A DNA stretch of 64,000 bases from Ignavibacteriales bacterium (GTDB lineage: Bacteria > Bacteroidota > Ignavibacteria > Ignavibacteriales > Ignavibacteriaceae). The position numbers and the translations under genes are program-made. Positions 29,306 to 33,314 of the stretch are shown in pieces; position 1 is the stretch's first letter, and each line of letters opens with the position of its first letter. The notes beneath the pieces were generated by a model. The model was given only the letters and a program-made list of their open reading frames with translations. It was not told the origin of the DNA and did not search any database. The stretch spans positions 1 through 64,000 of the forward strand of contig JAGUYG010000038.1 in NCBI GenBank assembly GCA_020061465.1, in the 5' to 3' direction.

Positions 29306-29481
29306 AAATAATTTGAAGTGAAATCCTATAAGAGTAATTTAGGAAGAAGGACAAATATCTGCATGCATGATTATTGATAATCCTGTGTAGATTAAATCAG
29401 TTGCATAGTGTAAATTTGGTCAACAAAAATAAAAAGCTTTTGTTAGTTCCATTGCTCTAAGAAGATAAAATAGGAGTTACC

Positions 29482-30387
29482 CTGGAACACGATAATAAAT
29501 TCATTCGCTCGCTTGTTCATAACTCTCAAAGCGGTAATAAATCTGCCTTTGAGCAATTATTCAATATCACTTATGATCGGGTACATGCAGTTGCACTTAG
29601 GTTGCTTGTTCAGCCTAACATAGCCGAAAAAATTACCACTGAAGTTTTTTATAAAGCATGGTTAGAGCTGCGTGCCTTTAGAGAAGATTGTCCTGTGCAG
29701 ATGTGGCTCTCTGCAATTACCGTGTATGTTGTGCTTGATGAACTAAGAAGAGACAAGATGAGAAGGTTACTGTTTAAGCAAGATAAAGAGTTTAAAGAGA
29801 AAGAGTTAGCAACTGTTCATCCTATATACATCAATTCACTAGAAAGAGAAATCGCAAATTTGCCTTTTTTAGAGCGCGTCATTTTTGTACTGCATGATAT
29901 GGAAAAATATTCGCTTGAAGAAATAGCAGCAATGCTCGATGAACCCGTTCCGGCGGTCAAAAATAAATTAGATAAAGCTCGTAAGGAAGTGATAGCAAGT
30001 GACGAGACTATTAGTTCGGTATCAATTATGCTGCTAAAGGTTGCTGCCTTGCCCGATAAAATAGAACCTAAGAAAAAATTGTGGATAGAAATATCTCAAA
30101 TGATCCAAACTAAAGAAGCTTTGATGAAGCACGAAAGGGAAGAAGCGGAAAGCGATAGATCATCTCTTGCCAGCAAAGAAAGAAAAGAAAAGAAACGACT
30201 GAAAAAAGAATGGCAGCGGACAGAAAAAGAGATTGAGAAAAAATTTAAGAAAATTGATTTTGCGAATATCGAAAAGATTCCTCATACCTCCCGCACAATG
30301 AGATGGTTGAAATTCTTTGTTTACCTCATTTTAATTACCGTAGGCATTTTGGCAGCTTTATATTTCATCTACGGAGGATATTTCTGA
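29482..30387 (+). CDS. Sigma-70 family (ECF-like) factor fused to an anti-sigma-like, membrane-anchored tail
   Basis: The frame shows sigma region 2 (AFEQLFNITYDRVHAVALR through AWLELRAFREDCPVQMWL) and region 4 (PFLERVIFVLHDMEKYSLEE, then AAMLDEPVPAVKNKLDKARK). Region 2 begins upstream of the first TTG (29602). The only plausible start is CTG 29482 behind AGGAG (29472-29476), because the frame is open only from 29461. After region 4 comes VAALPDKIEPKKKLWIEI, typical of the linker of membrane anti-sigma factors, then a highly charged coiled coil (about 215-265) and a final membrane helix FFVYLILITVGILAALYF. This suggests a self-tethered sigma factor. No separate anti-sigma gene is adjacent. 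Confidence 0.8.
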   Translation: MEHDNKFIRSLVHNSQSGNKSAFEQLFNITYDRVHAVALRLLVQPNIAEKITTEVFYKAWLELRAFREDCPVQMWLSAITVYVVLDELRRDKMRRLLFKQDKEFKEKELATVHPIYINSLEREIANLPFLERVIFVLHDMEKYSLEEIAAMLDEPVPAVKNKLDKARKEVIASDETISSVSIMLLKVAALPDKIEPKKKLWIEISQMIQTKEALMKHEREEAESDRSSLASKERKEKKRLKKEWQRTEKEIEKKFKKIDFANIEKIPHTSRTMRWLKFFVYLILITVGILAALYFIYGGYF

Positions 30388-30484
30388 GCTTAGTTCATCT
30401 TTATGCATTCCGCTTTATTCTATTTCTTGAACTCCAGATTGCGTTAAGAATTTGGGTGGTCCAAAAATAAGCCATGATAATTTT

Positions 30485-32180: not shown

Positions 32181-33314
32181 ATGCCAAACAAAAATATTAG
32201 TCTGTATTCGGAAGTAAAGCAGTTAATTGAAGAAGCTAAAACATTCGTTGTTCAAAACGTAAATACAATTCTTGTTTTTACAAATTATCACATAGGAAAG
32301 ATTATAGTTGAAGATGAACAGCGCGGAAAAGAAAGAGCTAAGTATGCGGAAAAGACTCTGAAAAATTTATCTAAGAGATTGACTAAAGACTTCGGAAGAG
32401 GATACTCTGAAGATAATCTTAATAGAATGAGAAATTTTTATCTTTTATTTAACTCTCGAATTTCCGCAACACCGTTGCGGAAATCTCAAGAGCCAATTAA
32501 AAAATACGCGACAGTGTTGCGGAAATTTACAGCTGTAAAATCTCGAAGGCAAAATGCACTATTAATGTGGCAGACAGCGTTTGCAGAATTTCAATTTCAT
32601 TTTCCGCTTAGCTGGTCACATTATTTATTTTTAATGAGAATTAGTAATGAAGATGAACGGAATTTTTATGAAATAGAATCTGCTCAAAACAAGTGGTCAA
32701 TTCGCGAACTACAAAGGCAATTTAATACATCTTTATATGAACGGATTGCATTAAGCAAGGATAAAAAGGCTGTAAGAGCATTGAGTAAAAAAGGGCTAAC
32801 AATTACGAAACCTATTGATATGCTTAAAGACCCGTACGTATTAGAATTTTTGGATTTGAGGGAAGAATCTGTTTATACCGAAAGTGAATTAGAAACGGCA
32901 ATTATAAACCGATTAGAAAATTTTCTATTGGAGTTGGGTAAAGGATATTTATTTCAAAGCCGGCAGCAAAGGTTAACGCTTAACAGCAAGAATTATCATA
33001 TCGATTTAGTTTTCTATAATCGCCTTCTAAGATGTTTTGTTATTATTGATTTAAAGATTGGTGAATTGACTCACGAAGATATCGGTCAAATGCAAATGTA
33101 TGTCAACTATTACGATCGAGAAGTAAAAAACAAAAATGAAAATAAAACTGTAGGCATAATATTATGCAAGCAGGCAAACACTGCAATAATTGAATACACT
33201 CTGCCTAAAAACAATAAACATATTTTTGCAAGAGAGTATAAACTTTATTTGCCAAGCAAGAAACAATTACAGAAATTATTACAATACAGTGGCGAGACTT
33301 TAATCACAAAATAA
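32181..33314 (+). CDS. YhcG family protein (DUF1016, PD-(D/E)XK nuclease)
   Basis: A 377-residue YhcG-type protein. An N-terminal DUF1016_N domain (YSEVKQLIEEAKTFVVQNVN, GRGYSEDNLNRMRNFYLLF) precedes a C-terminal PD-(D/E)XK-like nuclease domain: YHIDLVFYNRLLRCFVIIDL then KIGELTHEDIGQMQMYVNYY. The family is common in mobile and defence islands, and its exact role is unsettled. The middle linker (about residues 93-118) holds a duplicated element, ISATPLRKS and KYATVLRKF; its DNA forms a palindrome around GTTGCGGAAA (32460-32484). It sits on the opposite strand between aceF and lpdA, consistent with insertion into a PDH cluster. Confidence 0.88.
   Translation: MPNKNISLYSEVKQLIEEAKTFVVQNVNTILVFTNYHIGKIIVEDEQRGKERAKYAEKTLKNLSKRLTKDFGRGYSEDNLNRMRNFYLLFNSRISATPLRKSQEPIKKYATVLRKFTAVKSRRQNALLMWQTAFAEFQFHFPLSWSHYLFLMRISNEDERNFYEIESAQNKWSIRELQRQFNTSLYERIALSKDKKAVRALSKKGLTITKPIDMLKDPYVLEFLDLREESVYTESELETAIINRLENFLLELGKGYLFQSRQQRLTLNSKNYHIDLVFYNRLLRCFVIIDLKIGELTHEDIGQMQMYVNYYDREVKNKNENKTVGIILCKQANTAIIEYTLPKNNKHIFAREYKLYLPSKKQLQKLLQYSGETLITK

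Follow-up and report, generated by a model that had tools for sequence, protein, structure and literature searches.

Is the joining of a sigma factor to anti-sigma-like sequence and a membrane helix in one chain a genuine fusion, and how might such a protein be held in check? The question is raised by a gene in a 64,000-nucleotide stretch of DNA from an Ignavibacteriales bacterium (hereafter the window). The gene, at positions 29482–30387 of the forward strand, has a probable CTG start and a TGA stop, and its 301-residue product combines a sigma factor, a putative anti-sigma remnant and a membrane helix. A previous sequence-only reading had proposed an ECF-type sigma factor that tethers itself to the membrane. 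The fusion architecture is now well supported at the level of the family, and for the regulation of the window protein we infer a scheme from comparison with known systems.

The reading frame is open from 29461, following an in-frame TAA at 29458–29460, to the TGA at 30385–30387. The CTG at 29482, preceded by a Shine-Dalgarno-like AGGAGT found in the sequence (29472–29477, forward strand), is most likely the start codon, with ATA at 29470 as the alternative; the CTG was favored because most relatives align with the protein from residues 1–4 onward. A default open reading frame caller, which accepts only ATG, GTG, and TTG, starts the gene at 29602 and misses the first 40 residues. Non-ATG starts (GTG, TTG, CTG, or ATT) were found in 20 of the 26 fused-type genes whose start could be placed by rule, compared with ATG in all six placed split sigma genes, a comparison within these genes only, which share ancestry. 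Five fused-type genes were dropped because they offered no anchor (three have a methionine near the start place and one reads CTG), and six split sigma genes could not be placed. Upstream, a TAnnTTTG-like sequence was seen by eye at about 29411–29418 and in front of several relatives; it is reminiscent of Bacteroidota housekeeping promoters.

Profile searches with Pfam and NCBIfam located both of the sigma regions that had been read from the sequence. Region 2 spans residues 29–92 (29566–29757, forward strand; Pfam Sigma70_r2, E = 3.3e-5) and region 4 spans residues 119–169 (29836–29988, forward strand; Sigma70_r4_2, E = 7.9e-11). Two such regions joined by a short linker are the arrangement of ECF (group IV) sigma factors, and the NCBIfam sigma70-ECF score of 42.9 bits equals the cut-off of that model. 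Beyond the Pfam end of region 4 at residue 169, the chain continues with 20 residues, LPDKIEPKKKLWIEISQMI, a charged stretch, a hydrophobic helix, and four final residues. The charged stretch (residues 213–277; 30118–30312, forward strand) was delimited from the sequence and is largely helical in a low-confidence model. The predicted membrane helix at residues ~278–297 (30313–30372, forward strand), with basic residues on its N-terminal side and four residues after it, has a best 19-residue Kyte-Doolittle mean of 2.63, in agreement with the C-terminal helix proposed before. The single-sequence AlphaFold model of the protein has a mean pLDDT of 53, too poor to show docking, and was for this reason kept out of any fold search.

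Relatives were sought in a family set of 80 genomes, the window genome included. The window protein found matches at E 1e-20 in 30 of the 80, and 31 fused-type proteins were recognized in 29 genomes: the window protein itself, 20 fused copies with an open frame of ~518–538 residues in 18 genomes, and 10 helix-less copies of 219–291 residues in 10 genomes. A sigma profile (A4) ranks the fused-type copies first, at about E 1e-48 or better, followed by two sigma genes of another locus (1e-43 to 1e-44) and a zinc-keeping fusion in genome G011 (1e-41); because this fall-off is gradual, length, tail, and neighbors were also used in sorting the copies. The count omits other-locus fusions of the same family (the second copy of G010 and those of G011, G074, and G076). 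No copy of the fused type was recognized in the remaining family genomes, some of which may be explained by incomplete drafts. Within the stretch fetched around each gene, DUF255 and/or lpdA lies beside 27 of the 31 fused-type genes, the exceptions being two copies each in G003 and G005. Thus, relatives carry the same kind of tail at the same kind of locus, and the tail of the window protein is not artefactual.

In other relatives, the same parts are split between two genes. There, the sigma gene adjoins a gene for a zinc anti-sigma factor with HxxxCxxC, an LPxxIxP-LW segment, a coil, a membrane helix, and a FecR-like domain; the anti-sigma gene lies 3' of the sigma gene, with a 4-base overlap in loci L050, L051, and L052. 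Split relatives also occur at the DUF255–lpdA locus (L050 and L094): the split copies of genomes G078 and G079 lie between DUF255 and lpdA and that of G010 lies beside DUF255, while those of G059 and G060 have neither alongside. Moreover, in 21 of 40 loci chosen from matches to the C-terminal profile (L060–L099), a sigma ORF stands beside an ORF with HxxxCxxC and a FecR-like domain.

The split relatives allowed the anti-sigma-like segment to be interpreted. The anti-sigma profile was built from 14 of 24 domains, the HxxxCxxC pattern itself having been used to extract all 24. Of the other 10, about 8 (about a third of the 24) lack the P-x4-P motif as judged by eye. Invariant among the 14 aligned domains are H29, C33, and C36 (by construction) and P54 and P59; 13 of the 14 match zf-HC2, and the alignment of the profile with RsiW runs from one end to the other (E = 9.3e-7). 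In the crystal structure of SigW with RsiW, helices alpha1'–alpha3' are described as binding zinc and L4'-alpha4' as lying on sigma region 2 (PMC5358783), and in class I anti-sigma domains helix 4 is described as covering the RNA polymerase-facing surface of sigma2 (PMC7406223). LPDKIEP together with KKKLWIEISQMIQTKE in the window protein (residues 190–212; 30049–30117, forward strand) is aligned as the counterpart of L4'-alpha4', although its own score is marginal: against a profile from separate zinc anti-sigma proteins only, KVAALPDKIEPKKKLWIEISQMI scored 8.9 bits, and the best of 930 shuffled tails scored 8.5. With the split-derived profile of the alpha3' end and L4'-alpha4', 17 of the 31 fused-type proteins, the window protein included, scored above the best of 930 shuffles and 14 scored below it; six of the 31 reached 20–37 bits (maximum 36.8). 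None of the 31 exceeded the best shuffle of the zinc-bundle profile, and HxxxCxxC was not found in the window protein, as had been noted before. The zinc bundle that precedes the LPxxIxP-LW segment in the split relatives is therefore absent from the fusion. Of the 15 fused-type rows in A4, 11 have a junction of 24 residues, three of 23, and one of 20. In terms of the zf-HC2/ZAS family, the window protein has neither the zinc site nor the three-helix bundle; the sigma2-contacting L4'-alpha4' is present at family level, the window protein itself being marginal.

Since the split relatives carry the same segment within a zinc anti-sigma protein, its resemblance to anti-sigma factors is homology at family level. 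The sequence-only reading had noticed this resemblance as a motif, which holds, but had taken it for the linker between a cytoplasmic domain and a membrane helix, and the segment is more than that. The fusion, having no zinc bundle, retains the sigma2-contacting arm. It had also been suggested that any inhibition may come from tethering alone; as the counterpart of the segment in RsiW contacts sigma region 2 of SigW, this need not be so.

The fused and split relatives share a C-terminal domain, which matches Pfam FecR in 5 of 12 cases (best 1.5e-5). Its profile found nothing significant in the PDB, the top matches being an unrelated deacylase (E = 0.13) and a putative anti-sigma factor (0.16). 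At E 1e-5, the domain was detected in 31 of the 80 family genomes and in 95 of 391 sampled class genomes, and no match was found in the window genome or in any of the ten genomes that carry a helix-less copy. A periplasmic FecR-type sensor domain is present in 20 relatives, one with an interrupted frame, and is absent from the window gene. The 97 bases between its stop codon and the end of lpdA (30388–30484) hold no credible FecR-like trace, the best domain match there being 5.7 bits on the other strand. The window lineage has thus lost a FecR-like domain that relatives possess. The only Pfam FecR hit of the window genome (C56) was rejected as the domain in another place: it precedes a gene read by eye as TonB-receptor-like, and the window genome has no match to profile A2 at E 1e-5. 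The earlier proposal, in which a sigma factor, sequence of anti-sigma origin, and a membrane helix are joined, was sound in outline, and missed both the FecR-like domain and the helix-less relatives. As a separate observation, the fused frame of one relative (L099, genome G044) is interrupted within the FecR-like domain, the remainder of which lies in an overlapping frame.

The neighbor-gene tree has 30 rows, of which 8 are less than half filled; judged by its starred branches, at least three changes are needed to explain the helix-less state. The helix-less copy of G066 groups with fused G067/G068 (100/100), that of G061 groups with fused G046/G048/G050 (100/99), and seven helix-less copies form one clade (100/100). 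We read these lineages as separate losses, a regain of helix and domain being unlikely. The helix-less copies end in short, basic, aromatic tails. By a criterion set post hoc (a net charge of at least 5 and at least three large hydrophobic residues in the last 14 residues), 8 of the 10 passed, compared with 4 of 347 control genes, none of 16 other sigma ORFs, and none of 15 split or bare sigma proteins. When the charge limit was lowered to 3, all ten passed, but so did 56/347, 4/16, and 4/15 of the respective controls. The 347-gene control replaced a smaller one that gave 4/138, in which three of the four were orthologue tails. That such tails bind the membrane is a guess.

A tree of 46 rows, with paralogues left out, groups the nearest split copies, those of G010, G078, and G079, and the fused types in one clade of 34 rows (99/98), and leaves split G059 and G060 outside it. 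In the sigma tree, the window protein is weakly paired with the G010 split copy (76/63), and a single fused clade was not rejected by the AU test (p-AU 0.11). Sigma-domain identity to the window protein in A4 is 23–38%. The trees omit the other-locus fusions L069, L070, L071, L078, L090–L092, and L106. Among these, L071 (G010) and L106 (G011) retain the HxxxCxxC zinc site, and L069, L070, L078, L090, L091, and L092 are long sigma and FecR-like fusions of 564–659 residues in which HxxxCxxC was not found; the latter six are possibly more independent fusions. A Halalkalibacter contig (L038) with 26% identity was taken for a generic member of the ECF group and set aside. Virus contigs, scanned with one pattern per profile, gave 19 and 10 pattern matches, of which none was a relative.

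Selection was estimated from ten close pairs, which share sequences and of which several have dS values near saturation. In the eight fused pairs, dN/dS of the arm was 0.02–0.13 in the six that were computable, compared with 0.03–0.16 for the sigma domain in all eight; the arm value was not computable in G046–G048 and G041–G045, where dS is saturated. Constraint was looser on the charged stretch and helix, at 0.07–0.43 (seven of eight computable), and on the C-terminal domain, at 0.07–0.49. Two helix-less pairs also showed weaker constraint, with arm values of 0.13 and 0.23 and a sigma value of 0.28 from the only pair that allowed one. These figures describe the relatives only, the window's genus having one genome in the set. 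Purifying selection acts on the relatives' fused genes.

Around the window gene, Pfam assigned the neighbors tested to DUF255, SIMPL, Pyr_redox (an lpdA-like protein), and YhcG (a nuclease). A TonB-dependent receptor gene, the companion of IutY (ECF243), was not found next door; the rest of the window was read by eye only. The YhcG/DUF1016 nuclease gene (Pfam 2.4e-55; 32181–33314, opposite strand) lies between lpdA and an E2-like gene. Among relatives, 15 loci contain both of these genes, which lie side by side in 12 and are separated by an M29 peptidase gene in L041 and by a small ORF in L050 and L057. From the sequence, genes in the window were read as putative PDH E1 and E2 genes, and the style of the secretion tails as probably Ignavibacteria-like.

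Sigma/anti-sigma fusions are already known, and the window architecture is a variant of that kind. Those described are IutY (ECF243), some ECF36, ECF48, ECF52, and ECF53 (PMC8999054, PMC5826349). IutY of Pseudomonas putida is described as a sigma and anti-sigma hybrid joined by a helix, with the anti-sigma domain in the periplasm, and is freed by Prc and RseP; a figure legend names its sigma, transmembrane, and periplasmic anti-sigma domains (PMC5411451). The full-length relatives here likewise unite an ECF sigma domain, a single membrane helix, and a FecR-type periplasmic anti-sigma domain in one chain, and the truncated IutY forms resemble the window protein, which has no periplasmic domain. 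All nine truncated forms are reported as highly active, and all but the form without the membrane segment as wholly RseP-dependent; membrane-bearing truncated forms are undetectable without RseP (PMC5411451), so that this dependence may partly be one of stability. IutY differs in answering to the TonB-dependent receptor IutA encoded by the adjacent gene, whereas the conserved neighbors here are DUF255 and lpdA; in addition, the split relatives here carry an RsiW-type zinc anti-sigma domain, and the window copy lost its sensor naturally. The actinobacterial ECF52, ECF53, and ECF48 also join sigma to anti-sigma and membrane parts, but are described with a zinc finger and, in ECF52, a carbohydrate-binding domain (PMC8999054, PMC5826349), whereas the window protein has neither a zinc site nor a zinc bundle, and Pfam found no carbohydrate-binding domain in it. 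SigW and RsiW of Bacillus subtilis, the latter aligned with the split relatives' cytoplasmic domain over nearly its whole length, are two proteins, unlike the single, bundle-less chain of the window. In the literature searched, which stopped short of the large ECF classification, no fusion with a retained arm but without the zinc bundle was described, nor was the DUF255–lpdA locus.

We therefore propose, with somewhat better than even confidence, that the window gene encodes a sigma factor that is tethered to the membrane, bears a reduced anti-sigma arm in cis, and is released by a site-2 protease. The ancestor would have been a two-gene module of an ECF sigma factor and a zinc anti-sigma factor with a membrane helix and a FecR-like domain. 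A deletion would have made one gene of it, removing the zinc bundle but sparing L4'-alpha4' and the parts that follow it, from the charged stretch through the helix to the FecR-like domain; a single such event may have given rise to the fused form, and the FecR-like domain would then have been lost in the window's lineage. The retained arm probably folds back onto its own sigma region 2, and arm and tether together would keep the sigma part away from RNA polymerase. As its chain ends only about four residues past the helix, the protein, if inserted in the membrane, would be a direct substrate of a site-2 protease, and its activity would be set by the rate of release and, possibly, by a low rate of synthesis from the weak start codon. 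As a natural counterpart of truncated IutY with an arm added, the window protein would be expected to behave as a tethered, arm-damped, site-2-protease-freed sigma factor. M50/site-2 protease family members are present in the window genome, which says little, as they were found in 14 of 14 control genomes too. Folding back, membrane insertion, cleavage, and activity are all predictions for the window protein.

Other accounts have to be weighed against this one. The remnant could be a mere spacer behind a fully competent sigma factor, with control, if any, exerted through membrane attachment and proteolysis only; the marginal segment match of the window protein and the activity of truncated IutY once RseP acts are in keeping with it, but in the close fused pairs (six of eight computable) constraint on the segment is about equal to that on the sigma domain, and six of 31 proteins score 20–37 bits on the split-derived profile, and we consider a pure tether rather unlikely. 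A point against the favored reading is that truncation gives IutY constant activity, so that the window protein may lack regulation altogether. A constitutive sigma factor on its way out, whose switch went with the sensor, whose helix is a leftover, and whose gene is drifting towards a soluble sigma factor, would account for the absence of the FecR-like domain from the window gene and from ten relatives that also lack the helix (by at least three changes), and for the fast divergence of the sigma domains; the intact 301-codon frame, the good match of region 4 (4.9e-11), and the recurrence of basic, aromatic tails in separate helix-less lineages (8/10 vs 4/347, post hoc) tell against such decay, which we hold to be unlikely. 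Finally, a sequencing error behind the tail or the missing domain is scarcely credible. The draft state of the genome (122 contigs) and the interrupted gene of one relative (G044) would be in line with it, but sigma-to-helix fusion recurs in 20 relatives, no frame in the 97 bases before lpdA has a credible domain match, and the domain was not found in the window genome at E 1e-5; on these grounds an assembly artefact was rejected.

The favored reading of a tethered, arm-damped sigma factor can be carried further, to a zinc-free minimal self-inhibitor in which the sigma2-binding arm alone survives in cis, membrane residence is the conserved property, and basic, aromatic tails resembling those that bind membranes replaced the lost helix in several lineages; we regard this as possible but doubtful. 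The DUF255–lpdA locus displays what appear to be the steps of a rebuilding, from split pair to zinc-less fusion, loss of the sensor, and loss of the helix. It offers a natural experiment on two points: the smallest part of an anti-sigma domain that still suffices to hold a sigma factor, and whether a location at the membrane brings the sigma factor any advantage.
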